This document shows positions 1-16,516 of a stretch of DNA of 64,000 nt, in pieces. Made by a program: the position numbers and the translations under genes. How positions within the stretch are numbered: the stretch's first letter is position 1; each line of letters begins with the position of its first letter. The stretch is from Anaerolineae bacterium (GTDB taxonomy: Bacteria > Chloroflexota > Anaerolineae > Anaerolineales > Villigracilaceae), in assembly GCA_021324435.1 (NCBI GenBank), contig JAJPIZ010000032.1, positions 18,646 through 82,645 on the forward strand, read 5' to 3'. The notes under the pieces were generated by a model that saw only the letters and a list, made by a program, of their open reading frames with translations, had not been told where the DNA came from and did not search any database.

Positions 1-1623
1 TGTCATGCGCAGGTACATCATGACCAATGCACCGCGATGACCTGACTGGCAAAGCACAACAATAGGCGCGGCTTTGTCGGCGGGTAGCTGTGTGATGTTG
101 GCGGGTACATCTTTGATGTTGAAGTTGAGTGAGCTTTCAATGTGTCCGGTTTTGTATTCGTCGGCAGTGCGAACATCCAGTACAACAGGCGCGGGCGATC
201 CGGTCAATTCAACTTGCAGATCCGCGGCTTTCACTGTGTAGAAACCATCGGGTAAATTAGCAAGGAATTTGTTCAGGTCCCGCAGACGGGTGGCGTCCAC
301 TTGAGGAGCGATTCCCGCTGTCGGGGCGGTTGGAGCACCAGTCGCGACATTCAATTTGGCCGCCTTCCAAGCATTAAATCCGCCTGCAAGATTCTTGACG
401 TCGGTGTAGCCAAGCATTTGTAAAGAGGCCATGATCATTGCACCGCGATGACCTGAGGCACAGTAGATCACAATGGGCTGATCTTTGGCTGGAAGTTTAT
501 CGAGATTGTTCAACACCTCGCGCACAGGGATGTTAACCGCGCCAACAATGAAACCGTCTTTTTCAACTTCCGCGGCCTCGCGCACATCCAGCAGGAAGGG
601 GGCTTTTTCAGTGAGAGCGGTGTTCAAATCCGCTGCTTTGATGGTGTAGTAGCCTTCCGGGATATTGGTGAGATAGTCACTCCAGACGGTTGACCAGTCT
701 ACCCAACCTACAACCGGGAGTTTGGCGGCTTTCCAAGCGTTGAGGCCGCCAGCCAGGTTGACTACATTGGTATAACCCATTAAGTGCAGGCCCATTACAA
801 CAATGGAGCCGCGATGCCCTGAAACACAGTGCACTGCAATGGGTTGATCTTTGGCAGGTAGTTTATCGAGATTGTTGAAGAGTTCCTGCATCGGCACATT
901 GATCGCTCCCTCGATATGGCCGTCTTCGTTGAATTCATCTGCAGTGCGGATGTCAATAATGGTGGGAGGCGCGGCACTGGTCAATGCTTCCGCTAGTTTG
1001 TCGGATTTGATCGAATAAAAATCATCCGGCATGTTTCCGAAAAAGCTCGTGAGTATATCGAACAGCGCCTGATCTGTGATAATCGGCGTGCTGATAGCCG
1101 CGGCCGCTGGCAGAGGGGCGGTCGCAACCACGAGGTTCGCCTTCTTCCAGGCATTGAGGCCGCCAGCTAGATTGCGGATATTGGTATAGCCCAACAATTC
1201 GAGGGCCGCCATGGCCATGCCGCCGCGATGGCCGGAAGCACAATAGACAACAATGGGCTGGTCGGTAGCGGGGAGTTTATCCAAATTTGCCATCAATTGG
1301 CGAATAGGGATATTAACAGCGCCTTCGATGTAGCCATCCTTTTCAACTTCAGTTGGTTCGCGTACATCGAGGAGGAACGGCGGCTTATCGGCTAGCTCTT
1401 CGTTCAGTGTTGCAGGCTTAACTGTGCCATAGCCTTTATCCGCCGGCAGATTTGCGATCAGACTGTTGAAGAGCGCCTGTATGTCCGGACCTGATGCAAC
1501 CACAGAGGCAGAAGCCGGCGCCACCCCTGTTGCTTCTGTAGCCGGGGCGGCTGTACTGCAAGCACTCAACACGAGACTGAGCGCCATGAACAAGCCGAAA
1601 AGAGCGTGCAATTTCTTGGACAT
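1..1623 (-). CDS. Lipoprotein with four tandem rhodanese-like domains (partial, runs off left edge)
   Basis: Manual translation of the minus strand from ATG at 1623 shows no stop to position 1. N-terminus MSKKLHALFGLFMALSLVLSACSTAAP (lipobox). Four copies of C-x-S-G-H-R-G (YCASGHRGG, HCVSGHRGS, YCASGHRGA, LCQSGHRGA) spaced ~360-420 bp. Not in the supplied ORF track because it is open-ended. Confidence 0.9.
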   Translation of the reverse strand, partial: MSKKLHALFGLFMALSLVLSACSTAAPATEATGVAPASASVVASGPDIQALFNSLIANLPADKGYGTVKPATLNEELADKPPFLLDVREPTEVEKDGYIEGAVNIPIRQLMANLDKLPATDQPIVVYCASGHRGGMAMAALELLGYTNIRNLAGGLNAWKKANLVVATAPLPAAAAISTPIITDQALFDILTSFFGNMPDDFYSIKSDKLAEALTSAAPPTIIDIRTADEFNEDGHIEGAINVPMQELFNNLDKLPAKDQPIAVHCVSGHRGSIVVMGLHLMGYTNVVNLAGGLNAWKAAKLPVVGWVDWSTVWSDYLTNIPEGYYTIKAADLNTALTEKAPFLLDVREAAEVEKDGFIVGAVNIPVREVLNNLDKLPAKDQPIVIYCASGHRGAMIMASLQMLGYTDVKNLAGGFNAWKAAKLNVATGAPTAPTAGIAPQVDATRLRDLNKFLANLPDGFYTVKAADLQVELTGSPAPVVLDVRTADEYKTGHIESSLNFNIKDVPANITQLPADKAAPIVVLCQSGHRGALVMMYLRMT

Positions 1624-1660: not shown

Positions 1661-3175
1661 TCATTTTAGTAACTTGTGACAACTCTCGCAGTTTGTGTCA
1701 GTGTAGTTCGCGTGATCTGGTGGACTTACGGGCGCGTTGCGAATGCCCGGCGTATGGCAGGCCGTGCATGAATTTGAGACATGTTCAACATGGTCAGCGG
1801 GAATTGATGAAGCCTTGAGAATCTTCTCGATGGGAGGCGGTAGTGTTTCGACAATCACGGACGCGTTCGCTTCCAATTCCTCCGGCTTGACTTTGTCTGC
1901 CGTTAAAAAGAGGGATGAGTCGCCGCCGTGGCATTTATCACACGACGCGTTCTGCGGCGTATTGAGCTGAATGTTGTGTGGTGTTGCGTAAGCCCAAGTT
2001 GGAAGTGTGTTGAAGTTGGGCAGGAGGTTTTTGCCGTAGTAGGAATAACTATCGGCGTCTATTGGTATGTGCCGCACTGTGACATATTGATAGGGTCGGT
2101 CTGCGCTTCGGATTGGATTCCGGCCAATCAGAAATGTAGAGTACGTGTCTTGTGTCTCATAGAAAGGTTTTTTGCTTTTGTCGCTGATCGCCACATGACA
2201 GCCATCGCAACTCGTATACGTGACTGAGTGGCAGACCTCGCAAGAAAGTATATTTCCGTGCGACTGGTGCATTGGATTCTCATCGCCGCCCGGCGCCACA
2301 TTGGGATGGCAATCCACACATTTTGGAGTTTCGGCGTTGGCATAACGATTTGCAGGCGTGGTCGTCGTTCCTTGATCGCCATGTAGATTGGTCTCTGTAT
2401 GGCATTTAACGCAGTTCATACGCGCTTCGCGAAAATGGACATCGCCTGGTATGCCTTCGTTCTTTCCAAGAAATTCATTGCCAACGCGGCTCCCATGGCA
2501 AGCCGTACACGAGCGTGTCATCGGGGGAGTCTTTTCAAAGAGGTGTCCATTGAATAATCCGCCGCCCACATTCGATGGTTGACTTACATGGCATTCACCA
2601 CAGGTGGTGTGGCATGTGGCGCAATGATTGCCAAACATCTTTTCCAACGCGGCATGATTCTCAGGCATACTACGCATGTCAATTGCGGTCCAATAACCCT
2701 GCTGAGTAGCGTGCAAACTGAACAAGTATGCATTCACCTGATTAGCATGACAGTCTGCACAGAATTTTTGCGGCTGTGCGCTTGGGCTGATAATCAGGCC
2801 TTGATGGGCCGTCTCTTTATTGGATGATTGCACCCCTCCATGACAATCTATGCAGGCCTTTTTTCCATGCGCAGATTGCGGGAATTTCTCGTTATTCACC
2901 AAAACTTTCTCCCATGGCTCCAACGGAGCCACATCGCCCCCTCAGCCAACTCCTTTTGATTCGCTTTCTTTCTTCTCTTCTGGTTTTGCGGTCTCAATCA
3001 ATCGCTGTTTATCGGCATGGCAACTCAGGCACTCGTCAGTCTTTTGCTCCGCGGTTGGTGGATCTATATTGGGCGCGATGGTGTCTCTGACAGTTGGTAT
3101 GGCTTTGACGGATCCGCATGCTGAGAGAGCAAATAAGAGTACAAATATCATTGAAATGAATCTTGTTTTTAACAA
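1661..3175 (-). CDS. Multiheme c-type cytochrome lipoprotein (13 CxxCH) interrupted by one in-frame TGA at 2942-2944; ORF track splits it into 2942..3175 and 1661..2932
   Basis: ORFs 3175->2942 (signal/lipobox LSACGS plus one CLSCH) and 2932->1661 (12 CxxCH, no signal peptide, GTG start) are in the same frame, separated only by TGA GGG GGC GAT. Confidence 0.75.
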
Positions 3176-3398: not shown

Positions 3399-5015
3399 TT
3401 ATTTGCTGATATCGTTGACGTAATCCCGGGCCGGCACGCAGACATCCGTGAAATGATTCGCCATTGCATCCCATGTGAGTTTGTGTTCTGTGTTCCATGT
3501 CTCGTTGACGGCCAGGCCGAGGCACCCTGCGCCGGCATTGTAATCAACGAGCGTGAACTTCCACAGGTCTTCGTAGGAAGCAATAGCGCCCGGCTCTTGG
3601 CCGGTATTATTTTGAATCACCTGCCCGGTCTGCTCGCAACTTGCAAGCAATGTGTGAGCGAAGACGCCCACGCTAAAGTTGGCTTGACTCAAGTCAATGC
3701 CGAGCGGACAGTTCTCGCAGGTCGCGTTGACGCTGCCGACCAACGCCTGACGCAGAAGCAGTTGATCCTTGGCCTTCAGATGCACATAGCCTTTGCTACA
3801 TGCTTCTGATGAAAGCACGAGCGGACAATATTTGTTATAAAACGACGGATTCCAAAGCAGGGCTGTGTCTGCGCCATTTTCAGTCAATTGACCGAGTCCC
3901 GCATCGGGGCTGGCCTTGAAAACGCCCGGCCAAAATTGGCTTTCGCGTGCAAACAGGTTCTTGAGCAATTGCGCGGGCACACCCGTTTCCTGCGAGACGT
4001 TGATGATGAGCGCGTCGAATTGATTCTGCCATGCATCCACATCGGCGCGCGCGGCCTCCTGTCCACATTGATTCGCGCCGCCCTCCGGCAGAAGCCCTCC
4101 ATCGGGGCAACCGCTTGCATCCACAATGCCCTGCAAGATCAAGTTTGCAGAAAGATAGTTATAGGGAATATCACTGCTTAATTCAGATGGGTCTTGCGGT
4201 GTGATAAGCCAGTCAGGTGGTCCGCCAACGGGCGGAAATGAATCCCATGTCACAGAACAGGACGCATTTGGAGTTCCCCTCCATTGACTCGATAAAACAT
4301 CCACGTACCATGAGGATTGATCCGGGTTGCCTTCATCTGCAGTGGCGACGCGTACCTGCGCGGTGAATTCCGGGCTGGTATCGCCATAACTTGACCACGC
4401 CCAGAAATCCAATTTGACGCCGTTATCATCTGTTGGTGAGAGGCGGAGCTTGCAGGTGGCGTCGCAGGTGAAAGACTGGCCGTCCATTGTCCCCTCGATG
4501 CGCACGATATGTTCATTGGGAAGCGGCTCTACGCCTTTAAGTATGAGTATTGGAGGGGATTCACATATGTTCGTGCCGGACCTGGTAACGCCCGCGCAAT
4601 TTTCAAGCGACATCTCCACGGAAGCCGGAGGCAACGTCACGGCGATCTGACGCTGGGAGGTCTTCATGTCCACGAGGTAAAGATAAAATCCCGTGCAAAC
4701 TCCATTGATGCACGGCTTCTGTCTTTTCCACCCGAAATAGGTGTTGTAATCGCAATTGTTGTAGATTTCGCCAAGCGTCGGCTGACCTTCGTGATCAACC
4801 ACCAGGGAGCAAACGACCTCGTTCTTATCCCAAGTGGCGATCCACCAGGTGTAGGCGGTGTAGTCCACAGTGATGGGGGCGACGCGGTCGGGGCCGGGAG
4901 GGCCTGCAGGTTCGGCGGCCCGGCTGGAGGTCGCGGGAAGAAGCGCCAAACTGCCCAAAGTCAGCACGATGGCGAATATCCAAATGAGCAGGGTCGCGCG
5001 GCGCGATTGAGTCAC
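3399..5015 (-). CDS. Secreted protein with C-terminal lytic transglycosylase (SLT-like) domain
   Basis: N-terminal signal peptide; C-terminal 'LLKNLFARESQFWPG...AGLGQLTENGAD...YNAG' resembles SLT/goose-lysozyme-like folds. Confidence 0.65.
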   Translation of the reverse strand: MTQSRRATLLIWIFAIVLTLGSLALLPATSSRAAEPAGPPGPDRVAPITVDYTAYTWWIATWDKNEVVCSLVVDHEGQPTLGEIYNNCDYNTYFGWKRQKPCINGVCTGFYLYLVDMKTSQRQIAVTLPPASVEMSLENCAGVTRSGTNICESPPILILKGVEPLPNEHIVRIEGTMDGQSFTCDATCKLRLSPTDDNGVKLDFWAWSSYGDTSPEFTAQVRVATADEGNPDQSSWYVDVLSSQWRGTPNASCSVTWDSFPPVGGPPDWLITPQDPSELSSDIPYNYLSANLILQGIVDASGCPDGGLLPEGGANQCGQEAARADVDAWQNQFDALIINVSQETGVPAQLLKNLFARESQFWPGVFKASPDAGLGQLTENGADTALLWNPSFYNKYCPLVLSSEACSKGYVHLKAKDQLLLRQALVGSVNATCENCPLGIDLSQANFSVGVFAHTLLASCEQTGQVIQNNTGQEPGAIASYEDLWKFTLVDYNAGAGCLGLAVNETWNTEHKLTWDAMANHFTDVCVPARDYVNDISK

Positions 5016-5286: not shown

Positions 5287-5985
5287 CTATTGCATGACAT
5301 TCAGTTTGAGTTGTTCGACCTTGGCCGCCAGATTGCCCATGCGGATGCGGTTCCAGAACAAATCAACGAAGACGACGGTGAAGGTGAACAGCGCGAAGAA
5401 GAAGGCGACTTTCATGCCCCCGGTCATCGCGAAGGTGCCTTGTGCGCCAGGGTCGCCGCTACCGATGATCACAGGATGGATGGTGCGGAACAAACGAATC
5501 ACCATGAAAGTGATGGGCGCACTCACGCCGCCGATCAATGTATAAACCGCGCCGAAACGCGCACGACGGTCAGGATCTTCAATGCCTTCGCGCAACATGA
5601 AGTAAGCAATGTAGATTAATTCTGTGATGGCGGCGGTGGTGAGACGCGGGTCCCACGTCCACCAGGTGTTCCAAACCGGACGCGCCCAGATCGAACCGAG
5701 GATGATCGTGATCAGGAAGAAGACGAGGCTGATCTCGACTGCCGCAACCTCAATGATGTCCCATTTTGCATCTTTCGTGACCAGATACGCCACGCCGGTT
5801 CCCGCCGCGAGAAGAAAACCTAATAAGCCGACCCAGGCTGTTCCGATGTGAAAATAAAATACGCGTTGAACCTGTCCCATGACGGCCTCGGTGGGGGCGA
5901 AGACAAGGGCGAGATAGGTGGCAACGCCGAGCAAAATAATCGAGATGACGTCGAGGACTTTAAGAGCGATTGGTTTTGGTTCCAT
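5287..5985 (-). CDS. ccmC: Heme exporter/cytochrome c maturation protein CcmC
   Basis: MEPKPIALKVLDVISII...FYFHIGTAWVGLL...WGTWWTWDPRLT-type WWD motif (NTWWTWDPRLTT). ATG at 5985 preferred to the track start 6216, which runs through a repeat. Confidence 0.9.
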   Translation of the reverse strand: MEPKPIALKVLDVISIILLGVATYLALVFAPTEAVMGQVQRVFYFHIGTAWVGLLGFLLAAGTGVAYLVTKDAKWDIIEVAAVEISLVFFLITIILGSIWARPVWNTWWTWDPRLTTAAITELIYIAYFMLREGIEDPDRRARFGAVYTLIGGVSAPITFMVIRLFRTIHPVIIGSGDPGAQGTFAMTGGMKVAFFFALFTFTVVFVDLFWNRIRMGNLAAKVEQLKLNVMQ

Positions 5986-6029
5986 AAAACTCCTTTGGTT
6001 TGATGGCAGATGAGCGGAGATTGGGGTCT

Positions 6030-6165
6030 GTATGCAAATTCGTCTCATGTCATTCTGAGCGACCAACGGGAGCGAAGAATCTCGTTTTTTTTTTTCGTTC
6101 AAAATTTGAGATTCTTCGTCGCTTCGCTCCTCAGAATGACACATGAAAGTGATTTTGCATACACA
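6030..6165. repeat. Long inverted repeat element (GTCATTCTGAG...GAAGAATCTC / GAGATTCTTCG...CTCAGAATGAC)
   Basis: Arms tgtatgcaaa..catgtcattctgag..gaagaatctc and gagattcttcg..ctcagaatgacacatg..ttttgcataca are inverted. Confidence 0.85.
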
Positions 6166-6234
6166 CTCTAGATAATTAGAGGTTAGAGAACGGGTTTGGT
6201 GAAAAATGTTTGTCAAGCATTTGTCATCTACTCT

Positions 6235-11317: not shown

Positions 11318-13378
11318 TCAGTCCGCCGCACTGGGTTGATGTACTCGCTTTGTCCGCGCTGGCACGACCTCACTCTCGCGCTCCGGCCAGGCGGCGATCA
11401 GAATCCCGAAGAAGAAAATGATAGCGCCAATCCACAGCCAGTTGACCAGCGGGTTGACGAAAATTTTGAACGTCGCGCCGTTGGCTGAAACAGGTTGCCA
11501 ATCCACCAACAAGACATAGAGATCGTCTCTCAACGTTGGGCGTTCGCCAGGGATGGTCATGTTTTGTTGCGCGTCGGGATAATAGTCAATGCGCGGGTGA
11601 AGTTCGCCGAGATAATTTCCCTTCTGGTCATAAACGCCCACGACCGCTCGGGTCACTTGACGATTATCCGGGCCGGTGAACTGAGCAATTGATTCGTATT
11701 TGACGGAATATTCGCCTAACTTCAAAGAACCGTCCAAAGGCAGAGTTCCCTGCGTTTGGATTTGAAAGACTTCGATGCCGAGGATGCCGATGGCCATCAG
11801 CATCATGCTCATGTGGATGACATATCCGCCATAGCGGCGGCGATTGCGACCAACCAGAGTCAAAAGTGCGGTGAAGAAATTCTCATTTTGAGCGTTCATG
11901 CGGGCGCGGGTTGCGCGCCAAAACTCGATCAATGTGACGAACAAGACGAAGGCAATTAGGAAGAAGCCGATCAGCGCGATTGCATTTTTGGTGTAAGTGA
12001 AGAATAAAAGACCGGTCACCGCCAACGCCGCCAAAGCAGATTTCCATAAAGCGCGGCCAAGCGTGAGGAGGGTGGAATTTCCCCATGCAGAGAGCGGCGC
12101 GACGCCCATTAAGAACATCAAGGTCGCAAACAGTGGGGCTGTCGCCCGTTCATAGAATGGCGGGCCGACGGTTACTTTTTGTCCTGTCACCAGTTCGGAG
12201 ATGAGCGGGAAGATCACGCCCCAGAAACAAATCACCAGCACACTCATGAACAGAAGATTATTTAATAGGAAGAGCGCTTCGCGTGAGAGCATGGATTTCA
12301 TCTCGGTTTCGCCGCGCAGTTCGGGCCAGCGATAGATCACCAGAGCGATGGAAGTAATGAAGGTCGCGCCGATAAAGGCGAAGAAGGCGGGGCCGATGGC
12401 GCTTTGAGCGAAGGCATGGACCGAGGAGAGCACGCCGGAACGGGTCAGGAACGTTCCGAAGATGACCAGCGCGTAGGTCAATATAATGAGGATCATGTTC
12501 CAGTGCTTGAGCAGGCCGCGCTTTTCTTGAATCATCACGGAATGCAAAAAGGCTGTGCCTGTCAGCCAGGGCATGAAGGCCGCGATCTCGACCGGGTCCC
12601 AGCCCCAATATCCGCCCCAGCCAAGGACATCATATGCCCAGCGTCCGCCGAGGACGAGGCCAAAGGATAAGAACAGCCAGGCCCACAACGTCCAGCGGCG
12701 CGTGAGGCGAATCCAACGATCATCGGTGCGGCCCGTGATGAGAGCGGCCATCGCAAAGGCGTACGGAATGACGAATGAAACAAAGCCAAGATACAACATC
12801 GGCGGGTGGATGATCATTCCTGGATGGCGAAGCAGGGGATTGAGGCCGCGCCCGTCTTGAGGGAAGAAGGCGGTCGCGTTGGCTGGGGCAAACATACTCG
12901 CAACAACCTGACCATCGAAGGTCTGCCAGTAACGCGCAAATGGATTTTCAAAGAAGATAACGAGACCAAGGAAGAAAGCAGTAGTAATTGAAGTGACGAC
13001 GATCACCCATGGGAGGAACTCGCGATCGCGATCCCATTTGCGGAGAGTGACGAGGGATGCAAATGCCGACATCAGCCATGACCAGAAGACCAGCGAGCCG
13101 GCTTGTCCGCCCCACCAGGCTGTAACCTTGAGATAGGTCGGCATCTCGCGGCTGGTCACTTCATAGACAAATGAAACTTCAAAATGGTTGGTGACGAGCA
13201 AATAAATGAGAGTTGCGGCAGAAAGTGAAATCAGCGGCCATGTCAATAACATGGCGCGCCGCGCAGATTCAACAAAGGCGGGAGATTTCTTTCGCTCACC
13301 GTAGATCGCCGCGCCGACGCTGTATAAAGCAACAATAAACGTTACAACTAAAATTCCGTATCCGATTTCAGCCAACAT
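11318..13378 (-). CDS. ccmF: Heme lyase subunit CcmF
   Basis: WGGYWGWDPVEIAAFMPWLTGTAFLHS (WWD domain), multiple TM; start MLAEIGYG at 13378. Confidence 0.92.
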   Translation of the reverse strand: MLAEIGYGILVVTFIVALYSVGAAIYGERKKSPAFVESARRAMLLTWPLISLSAATLIYLLVTNHFEVSFVYEVTSREMPTYLKVTAWWGGQAGSLVFWSWLMSAFASLVTLRKWDRDREFLPWVIVVTSITTAFFLGLVIFFENPFARYWQTFDGQVVASMFAPANATAFFPQDGRGLNPLLRHPGMIIHPPMLYLGFVSFVIPYAFAMAALITGRTDDRWIRLTRRWTLWAWLFLSFGLVLGGRWAYDVLGWGGYWGWDPVEIAAFMPWLTGTAFLHSVMIQEKRGLLKHWNMILIILTYALVIFGTFLTRSGVLSSVHAFAQSAIGPAFFAFIGATFITSIALVIYRWPELRGETEMKSMLSREALFLLNNLLFMSVLVICFWGVIFPLISELVTGQKVTVGPPFYERATAPLFATLMFLMGVAPLSAWGNSTLLTLGRALWKSALAALAVTGLLFFTYTKNAIALIGFFLIAFVLFVTLIEFWRATRARMNAQNENFFTALLTLVGRNRRRYGGYVIHMSMMLMAIGILGIEVFQIQTQGTLPLDGSLKLGEYSVKYESIAQFTGPDNRQVTRAVVGVYDQKGNYLGELHPRIDYYPDAQQNMTIPGERPTLRDDLYVLLVDWQPVSANGATFKIFVNPLVNWLWIGAIIFFFGILIAAWPERESEVVPARTKRVHQPSAAD

Positions 13379-13434
13379 TCGATGCTCCTTGGAAAATAAG
13401 ACCTGACAGGACAAGCTCCGTCAGGTCTTGTATC

Positions 13435-13914
13435 TTAACCACCGGTTTGACTCGGTACGGCTTCCTGGTATTTAGTCGGGCACTTGAGCAGAAGTTCATC
13501 CGCGTGGAAGACGCCGTCCGCAGAGAGTTGGCCGGTCATGATCGCCTGGGCTTCGTTCTTGAGCAGATCCGGCTTGGGGCCTACGTAAACTACTTTGATG
13601 CGCGACCGGTTCGGGTCCACGACTGCGGCGTGAAGCACGGCGGCCAATCCGCCTTCCGCGTCCACTTCCTTATTATCGCCCGGAACATGCGCAACTTCGA
13701 AGGTCAGCGTCAGCGTTTGTGGATCATATTGAATCGTGTCGCCAATCACGGCGCCGGACACGCGCAGATTCTTTCCGATCACACCGGACCCCCGAGCCTT
13801 GAGTTCGTCAATTGTCATAAAGTATTCGGCATTGGCTTGCGTGGAGGAAGCGATCAAATACACAACTGCCGCCAGAATGAGCACACCGCCGATGATGAAT
13901 TTCATGCGTCCCAT
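13435..13914 (-). CDS. ccmE: Heme chaperone CcmE, CxxxY variant
   Basis: Single TM, OB-fold-like core, HADELLLKCPTKYQE (Cys in place of canonical His; CxxxY). Confidence 0.85.
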   Translation of the reverse strand: MGRMKFIIGGVLILAAVVYLIASSTQANAEYFMTIDELKARGSGVIGKNLRVSGAVIGDTIQYDPQTLTLTFEVAHVPGDNKEVDAEGGLAAVLHAAVVDPNRSRIKVVYVGPKPDLLKNEAQAIMTGQLSADGVFHADELLLKCPTKYQEAVPSQTGG

Positions 13915-14293
13915 GAATATCTCCGATCCATCAAAAAGTTCAATCTTCCGAGTCTCATTCTACATGACGAGATTAATAGACGCTGAAAACAAGTCAGACA
14001 TTTGTCATGGAATTCACCCAATTTTATCCCAATTGAAAAATGATTTGTACGGGTTGGGGTTTGCCGCCACTGAAGTGAACGGAAGAAAATGGGTCTTGTG
14101 GGCAAAATAAGATTATGACATCTGTCATGTCTATTTGGTCTGATTTTAACTTGTGATTAATGTTGCAAAAACTTACAATCTTTTTGTACACCCCGAAATA
14201 TAAGGAACTTTATCCTGTTTGATACGAGGAGGTGACCTGCTAACAGTCTTAATATGAGTCTGTGCTCAACCCTATGAAAAGGAGAATGAAACA

Positions 14294-16516
14294 ATGTCGC
14301 TAAAGAAAATGCTCGTTTTGTTGGGCGTCATGATCATTGCCGCAGTCATTTTGGTCGCTTGTGGAAACAAGACCCCCACGACAACTGAAGCCCCGGCAAC
14401 GACCGCCGCCCCTGTTTTGGAAATTCCATTCAAAGACGCCTTCCTCGGTTCCGGCCATGCGGACACAACGGCTGAGGCTTTCAAACATTGGGATAGCGCT
14501 AACCCCGCAGAGATTCCAACCTCCTGCGCGAAGTGTCATAGCACGGCAGGATACATTGACTTCCTGGGAGGCGATGGAAGCGCAGTTGGCGCAGTGGATA
14601 AAGCTGTGCCCGCTCCGGCTGGAACGTTCAGTTGCACGACCTGTCATAACCCTGCCGCGATCGCGTTGACTTCGGTCACTTTCCCCTCTGGCAAACAAGT
14701 TGACAACCTCGGCCCTGAGGCTCGTTGTATGCAATGCCATCAGGGACGCGAGTCCAAGGTCAGTGTGGACAAGAAGATTTCCGATTTCAAGATCACCGAT
14801 GTTGATGCTGTCGTCGCTCCGATTAAGGATGATAAAGGCAACACGGTCAACTTCGGCTTCATCAATGTCCACTACTTTGCCGCCGGTGCGACCCTCTATG
14901 GTTCTCAGGCTCAGATGGGTTATGAGTACGATGGCAAAGCCTACGATCCGAAATTCCGTCACGTGGAAGGATATGACACCTGCCTCGGCTGTCACGACCA
15001 GCACAGTTTGCAAGTAAAGGTCGAGCAGTGCGCGTTTTGCCATGAAGGCGTCAAGACCGTTGATGACCTGAAGAACAATCGTGAACCAAGCTCCCTTGTT
15101 GACTACAATGGCAACGGTGATACCAAAGAAGGCATCTACTATGAGATCAAGGGCCTGCAGGATATTTTGTATGGCTCGATCCAGATGTATGCCAAGGAAG
15201 TGGCCGGTACGGGTATTGCTTATGATCCCGCCGCGTATCCCTATTGGTTCGCGGATGCAGATGGCGATGGCAAGGCCGATCAAAAGGATGGCAAGTCCGT
15301 CTCTTATGCGACCTGGACTGCCCGCCTGCTGAAAGCCGCGTACAACTACCAGGCCTCCGTCAAGGACCCCGGCGATTTTGCCCATAACGCCAAATACGTC
15401 ATTGAATTGCTCTATGATTCAATTGCCGACCTGAATGGCAAAATCTCCAAGCCGGTTGATATGAACAAGCTGGCCCGCGATGACGCCGGACATTTTGCAG
15501 GAGATACCGAAGCCTTCCGTCACTGGGATAACACGGGTGAAGTTCCTGCCGGTTGTGCCAAGTGCCACAGCGCTGGCGGCATGTCTGAATATATTCACAA
15601 CGGCGGCACGCTCGTTGTCACAAAATCGGGCGTTCAGATCACCGGCGTTGTCGGTCAGCCGGTTGCCAATGGTTTCATGTGCGTCACCTGCCATGACGAA
15701 TCCAACTGGCCCAATCGTTACGCGGTCGTGAACGTCCCGTTCCCGTCCGGTGTCTCTCTCACGTTCAGCACCGAGAAGGATGACAAAGGCAACTTGAAGC
15801 CCGTGGATGCGAACTTGTGCATCGAGTGCCACCAGGGACGCGAGTCCACCGTCACTGTCAACAATTATCTGGCTGGCAAGCCCCTCGATACAGCGGATGC
15901 CAAGATCAGCTTCAAGAATGTTCACTACTTTGCGGCGGGCGCGACTCTCTTCGGCACGGACGCCAAGGGCGCCTATGAGTATGACAAGCAGACCTACCTC
16001 GGCTACAACGCGATCCATCCGTTGAACAAATGCACCGACTGCCATGATGTCCATGCGTTGAATGTCAAAGTGGACGCGTGCAAGGCCTGCCACACCAACG
16101 TCGCGGGCGTGGAGGATCTCCAGAAGATCCGCGCCACCACCGATACGACCGATTGGAATGGTAACGGCGATACAAGCGAAGGCGTTTACGCAGAGATTGA
16201 CAGCTTCCGCTCCGCGCTGTATGCCGCCATTCAAACTTACGCTGAAAAGAACGGAACGCCGATCACGTACAACGCCGCATCCTATCCATACTTCTTTGTG
16301 GATGCGGATAAAGATGGCAAGCCCGATAAGAATGACAAGGGCGCCAACATTGCCTACAATGCCTGGACTCCGCGTCTGCTGAAAGCCGCCTACAACTATC
16401 AATATTCCATTAAAGACCCCGGCGCTTTCGCTCACAATCCGAAGTATGTGCTCCAGTTCCTGTACGACTCGATCAAGGACCTGGGCGGGGACGTCTCGAA
16501 GTTCAAGAGACCGTAG
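14294..16516 (+). CDS. Decaheme c-type cytochrome lipoprotein built of two homologous pentaheme repeats
   Basis: Lipobox ILVACGN; 10 CxxCH; halves share EAFxHWD...CAKCH...CTTCH/CVTCH...CxxCHQGRES...NVHYFAAGATLxG...CxxCHDxH...CxxCH and C-terminal 'FAHNxKYVxxxLYDSIxDL'. Confidence 0.88.
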   Translation: MSLKKMLVLLGVMIIAAVILVACGNKTPTTTEAPATTAAPVLEIPFKDAFLGSGHADTTAEAFKHWDSANPAEIPTSCAKCHSTAGYIDFLGGDGSAVGAVDKAVPAPAGTFSCTTCHNPAAIALTSVTFPSGKQVDNLGPEARCMQCHQGRESKVSVDKKISDFKITDVDAVVAPIKDDKGNTVNFGFINVHYFAAGATLYGSQAQMGYEYDGKAYDPKFRHVEGYDTCLGCHDQHSLQVKVEQCAFCHEGVKTVDDLKNNREPSSLVDYNGNGDTKEGIYYEIKGLQDILYGSIQMYAKEVAGTGIAYDPAAYPYWFADADGDGKADQKDGKSVSYATWTARLLKAAYNYQASVKDPGDFAHNAKYVIELLYDSIADLNGKISKPVDMNKLARDDAGHFAGDTEAFRHWDNTGEVPAGCAKCHSAGGMSEYIHNGGTLVVTKSGVQITGVVGQPVANGFMCVTCHDESNWPNRYAVVNVPFPSGVSLTFSTEKDDKGNLKPVDANLCIECHQGRESTVTVNNYLAGKPLDTADAKISFKNVHYFAAGATLFGTDAKGAYEYDKQTYLGYNAIHPLNKCTDCHDVHALNVKVDACKACHTNVAGVEDLQKIRATTDTTDWNGNGDTSEGVYAEIDSFRSALYAAIQTYAEKNGTPITYNAASYPYFFVDADKDGKPDKNDKGANIAYNAWTPRLLKAAYNYQYSIKDPGAFAHNPKYVLQFLYDSIKDLGGDVSKFKRP

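Follow-up and report, generated by a model that had tools for sequence, protein, structure and literature searches.

The closest described system is ExtKL of Geobacter (GSU2937-2936), for which selenocysteine (Sec) was proposed in 2007 from a TGA codon, though no SECIS was found and no Cys homologues are known (PMC1914089). ExtKL begins with five N-terminal hemes, which are followed by the Sec region (PMC1914089), and the rhodanese lipoprotein ExtH is encoded in the same gene cluster, as is a divergent LysR (PMC6148476, PMC5877670). A selenoprotein inventory of 2026 includes ExtKL and a Sec octaheme cytochrome (PMC13188914). In the bacterial SECIS model, the loop is 3–9 nt long with a G in the first two positions, on a stem of 4–16 bp, and lies 16–37 nt after the UGA, with a minimum free energy (MFE) of -7.5 or lower (PMC13188914).

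The locus considered here lies near the left edge of a stretch of 64,000 nucleotides from an Anaerolineae bacterium (the window; Table 1). The minus-strand frame 3175-1661 has a sole interruption, the TGA at 2944-2942, with which the ORF starting at 3175 closes; an earlier note on this DNA had claimed that the frame continues across this codon into further hemes, and indeed it runs on to the terminal TGA at 1663-1661. The read-through product has 504 residues and 13 CXXCH motifs in all (49, 108, 139, 185, 192, 223, 255, 286, 312, 323, 412, 470 and 496), with the predicted Sec, residue 78, falling between heme 1 (C49) and heme 2 (C108), so that one heme precedes it and 12 follow. The start at ATG 3151 is preferable to TTG 3175, and the N-terminus carries a lipobox (LSAC, a lipoprotein-type signal). 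An exported cytochrome of lipoprotein type, carrying 11 to 13 or more c hemes, would be the product.

Table 1. Features of the locus, in window coordinates.
Feature	Position	Strand	Basis
Four-domain rhodanese lipoprotein, ATG 1623-1621	1..1623	-	4 x PF00581 and four C-x-SGHRG active-site loops
Predicted Sec-containing 13-heme c-type cytochrome, lipoprotein-type	1661..3175	-	Frame reading and homologues
Acidic/Gly-rich insert PEEKKESESKGVGUGGDVAPLEP, between hemes 1 and 2	2915..2983	-	Absent in L070 and L021
Predicted SECIS hairpin, 7-bp stem, GUU triloop (2924-2922)	2915..2931	-	Conservation and published model criteria
In-frame TGA, predicted Sec codon (residue 78)	2942..2944	-	TGA 78/80, TGG 2, Cys 0 in relatives

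A protein-level scan of GTDB genomes gave 260 candidate matches, from which 80 relatives were fetched, whose records all place them in Chloroflexota or among Anaerolineae-type bacteria (one is titled Brevefilum, which belongs to the same group). The codon at the Sec site is TGA in 78 of these and TGG in the other two (L114 and L164). The TGA carriers span many genera and families and include the cultured Thermanaerothrix daxensis (L138) and Bellilinea caldifistulae (L155), and the divergent copies L068, L069 and L081, from other families of the phylum, have TGA too. When 61 related genomes were searched, the gene was found in 18, each time with a single TGA at the same place. Two of the divergent copies, L068 and L081, are found in one genome (G070), with the contexts GEGUAGELPPLE and CKGUGGYVPPLE, and L027 and L028 (genomes G033 and G024) are longer by an insertion of some 60 residues, which follows heme 3 and carries further heme motifs.

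Cys homologues are usual for selenoproteins, though not obligatory. The earlier note had counted Cys or Sec aligned with the TGA as support; no Cys homologue was found among the 80 relatives, where the sole alternatives are the two TGG codons, both beside a decayed rhodanese gene; other relatives are without the segment. The TGG of L114 arose by a deletion of 3 nt that joined TGA and GGG, and the cytochrome ORF of L164 is still intact without Sec. These two homologues thus show that a Sec-free protein can exist, in degraded neighbourhoods.

The nearest non-Sec relatives, L070 and L021, align on both flanks of the Sec segment and lack about 22 residues corresponding to the insert, which therefore represents an insertion. 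An AlphaFold model made with 17 sequences reached a pLDDT of 41, and one made with 60 sequences, without hemes, a pLDDT of 75; in the latter, residues 78–82 have pLDDT values below 50. This is suggestive of a Sec arm between hemes 1 and 2 that is probably flexible or mobile. A Foldseek search with the model found no relative in the PDB, and a sequence search with the cytochrome gave local matches to multiheme cytochromes and nothing more.

The hairpin downstream of the internal TGA, TGGCTCC-GTT-GGAGCCA, begins 10 nt past the UGA. The 7-bp stem and 3-nt loop noticed earlier are as described, and the loop lies 17 nt past the UGA. With an MFE of -12.9 kcal/mol, the hairpin agrees with the published SECIS model in every respect. 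As a control, the terminal TGA of the same gene has no comparable structure downstream (-0.9 vs -12.9 kcal/mol), and the two TGAs of one gene can thus be told apart by context, since the hairpin follows the internal one alone. We also considered global recoding of TGA, which the earlier note had held unlikely; we agree and reject it, because the cytochrome gene itself stops at a hairpin-free TGA. A Watson-Crick stem of at least 7 bp in SECIS geometry is seen after 1.9% of 537 ordinary TGA stops and in 16 of 20,000 shuffles, so that the hairpin by itself is unusual, not extraordinary, and it is its conservation in about 80 relatives that makes the case decisive. A search of Rfam, which apparently lacks a general model for bacterial SECIS elements, gave no SECIS match.

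To look at this conservation we used 84 sequences gathered by a DNA pattern, which missed none of the 78 TGA loci from the protein-level scan. The hairpin codons GTG-GCT-CCG-TTG-GAG (following GGx-GGx-NNN) are identical in 82–84 of the 84, while the share of the commonest codon in the other 70 conserved degenerate columns has a median of 0.49 and nowhere exceeds 0.81. At the TGG locus L164, four of the five codons have changed (GTG-GTC-CCA-CTG-GAC), GTG alone being kept. Paired changes are found in L015, L149, L151 and L068, where GGCTCC/GGAGCC has become GCCTCC/GGAGGC and VAPLEP has become VPPLEA (A to P, P to A), and in L114, where GGCTGC/GCAGCC keeps the stem and VAPLEP has become VAALQP (P to A, E to Q); in L140 the stem is kept through a G-U pair. 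What is conserved is evidently the pairing rather than the peptide, because the double changes keep the stem but alter two amino acids. The near-invariant codons and compensatory changes place the hairpin that had been picked out in one genome under selection at the RNA level. In one divergent copy, L069 (G173), the TGA is present but the standard hairpin is not clearly recognisable; an alternative hairpin (GAGGCG/CGCCTC) that overlaps the TGA is predicted there and may be a modified SECIS.

The components of Sec decoding that the earlier note had named are all present in the same genome, namely a tRNA-Sec with a UCA anticodon, SelA (548 bits), SelB (347 bits) and SelD (350 bits). The SelD is itself of the Sec type, with its own in-frame TGA (L056, G000:C28:26110-27042; context CAGUASK), and so provides an internal standard: its SECIS, GGCGCAG-GUU-CUGCGCC, has 7 bp and a GUU loop 33 nt downstream of the TGA. 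The GUU triloop is thus common to the cytochrome hairpin and the selD SECIS of one genome, and when this selD is taken together with those of 29 relatives, 26 of the 30 genes have a GUN triloop in their SECIS, and in 15 it is GUU. All 18 carriers among the 61 related genomes pass the SelB cut-off, but this co-occurrence is weak evidence alone, because many members of the phylum use Sec (SelA in 322 of 399 genomes).

The cytochrome gene is followed by a multi-domain rhodanese gene, which in the genome studied runs about 75 nt past the left edge of the window (L175:4572-6305), has Cys and not Sec in its active site, and passes the cut-off of NF041203 (143 bits, cut-off 115). A multi-domain rhodanese lies directly downstream of all 78 TGA genes (tblastn; three are cut by contig ends), with a median gap of about 40 nt. 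Both TGG homologues (L114:7880-9335 and L164:7988-9431), in contrast, are followed by broken rhodanese remnants with stops or frameshifts, that is 2/2 vs 0/78 (p ~3e-4, Fisher). As there are two events, the loss of rhodanese together with Sec indicates a link but does not prove it. At L114 the LysR gene is truncated as well. LysR is divergent upstream in 41 loci and after the rhodanese in 24; its best match is NF040786 (selenium metabolism-associated), with 210–228 bits in the members tested, just below the cut-off of 250, and a LysR apparently near this family completes the cytochrome-rhodanese module.

Further neighbours vary between loci. A divergent set of NrfD, ferredoxin and multiheme cytochrome genes is found at about 24 of the 58 loci with enough flank, and the operon in the window's own genome continues with a CCG-domain Fe-S membrane protein. 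Among the neighbour clusters common to at least five loci, none resembles a porin, a kind of protein represented in the Geobacter module by the outer-membrane porin ExtI. Near the TGG homologue L164, genes at 11478-14419 of the locus encode, by eye, a YeeE/YedE-like transporter, a DsrE-like small protein and an Hdr-like Fe-S protein, which suggests a sulfur or selenium context. Upstream of the cytochrome, the gene at 3399-5015 on the minus strand of the window is conserved in 13 loci and matches transglycosylase SLT weakly (19.7 bits, under the cut-off of 21.3), and genes of cytochrome c assembly type lie farther upstream, around 5287-6216.

Comparison across genomes points to one gene with a conserved UGA and a functional hairpin, with the Sec machinery and with linkage to a rhodanese. 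We predict with high confidence that Sec is inserted at residue 78 of one full-length cytochrome, as the earlier note had suggested; the TGA homologues, the machinery and the RNA-level conservation of the hairpin all support this. A nonsense mutation or a sequencing error beside GGGGG, also raised there, has nothing in its favour beyond its appearance in one genome, and is already refuted by the relatives: the same TGA is found in 78 other assemblies across genera and families, the two cultured species among them, which leaves its probability negligible. It is extremely unlikely that the locus encodes two separate proteins of a conserved operon, with the TGA a true stop and translation restarting at GTG 2932. 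Translation could start at this GTG, four codons past the TGA, and the codon is kept in most cases, as part of the hairpin, but it is replaced by CTG in L146 and by GCG in L069, and the second part, being without a signal peptide, could not be matured outside. Moreover, in all relatives a single frame runs across the TGA with conserved residues on either side, and fusions through TGG exist (L114 and L164), which bears out the earlier claim that the two ORFs make one protein; both are very probably parts of one gene whose cytochrome is intact despite the TGA. Programmed readthrough, in which the hairpin would stimulate a near-cognate tRNA (Trp, for instance) at the UGA and the product would be free of selenium, is very unlikely. 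Hairpins are able to stimulate readthrough, and two homologues have TGG at or beside the site; however, TGG is one transition away and yet TGA has been kept in 78 of 80, the hairpin fits the SECIS model with a GUN triloop as in the SelD SECIS of the same lineage, SelB is present in all carriers tested, and the partner gene has decayed at the TGG loci.

On this reading, which the comparison of genomes strongly supports, SelB on the hairpin brings Sec-tRNA(Sec), and the ribosome puts selenocysteine at residue 78. Given insertion of Sec, a mechanism can be proposed. Outside the membrane, the rhodanese would hold sulfane sulfur (or selenium) as a Cys-persulfide, the Sec selenolate on its flexible arm would take or cleave the rhodanese-bound chalcogen, and the heme wire would give or remove electrons one at a time. 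In this way polysulfide, thiosulfate, S0 or selenite-type compounds would be reduced (or oxidised) in respiration, with electrons perhaps supplied by the NrfD/ferredoxin-type module beside many copies, or by the CCG-domain Fe-S membrane protein of the operon itself. We put forward this relay, a heme-driven exchange of chalcogen between Sec and the rhodanese persulfide, tentatively, and would give it somewhat less than an even chance. Just as tentative is the wider idea that a family without a Cys ancestor, in which a Sec on a mobile arm is obligatorily paired with a rhodanese, may be an extracytoplasmic chalcogen reductase/oxidase; ExtH/ExtKL would then be a second case, independent in origin or very remotely related. 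With Sec decoding unchanged, the function might instead be reduction of selenite/tellurite or metals, as has been suggested for Geobacter ExtKL, the rhodanese carrying selenium and not sulfur. This is possible but doubtful: the locus has the same triad as extH, extKL and the divergent LysR, and its LysR is nearest to a selenium-associated family, whereas the cytochrome is not homologous to ExtKL at the model level, and the NrfD-type and CCG-type neighbours suit sulfur or thiol chemistry at least equally.

The paired loss of Sec and rhodanese provides a concrete functional hypothesis, and the cultured carriers make the family testable. At least 80 Chloroflexota assemblies carry the gene, which ordinary annotation would cut in two, leaving a short piece of lipoprotein and, as an orphan, a cytoplasmic cytochrome. 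The predicted family would join the few selenoprotein families that have no Cys homologues, and it ties together selenium, c hemes and rhodanese chemistry.

A search of NCBIfam with the cytochrome gave nothing above cut-off. The decaheme families GSU2203 (NF041028) and DmsE-type (TIGR03508) show weak local similarity, but at 24 bits this is far under their cut-offs of 325 and 192. The TIGR04315 tetrathionate reductase family octaheme cytochrome is alike in that Sec has been reported in a multiheme cytochrome, here through GenBank annotation (listed in PMC13188914), but it differs in heme number, and the window protein has no match to it at E values up to 1. Comparison with the rhodanese-related (seleno)protein NF041203 and the TsoB rhodanese/DsbD selenoprotein NF045694 concerns the partner, not the cytochrome. 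The family is not obviously in the 2026 inventory (PMC13188914), though prior mention elsewhere in the selenoprotein literature is possible. ExtKL is the most similar in kind, being a multiheme c-type cytochrome whose annotation is split by an in-frame TGA and for which no Cys homologues are known, and the extHIJKL module likewise has a rhodanese lipoprotein and a LysR in the same cluster. Unlike ExtKL with its five N-terminal hemes, however, the window protein has a single heme before Sec and 12 after it, and a clear SECIS; compared through the ExtKL model alone (NF040886, cut-off 250 bits), it gives no match. Sec multiheme cytochromes are thus already a known kind, and the present one appears to be a new selenoprotein family in an extH/extKL-like module, distinct from ExtKL, which it may help to explain.
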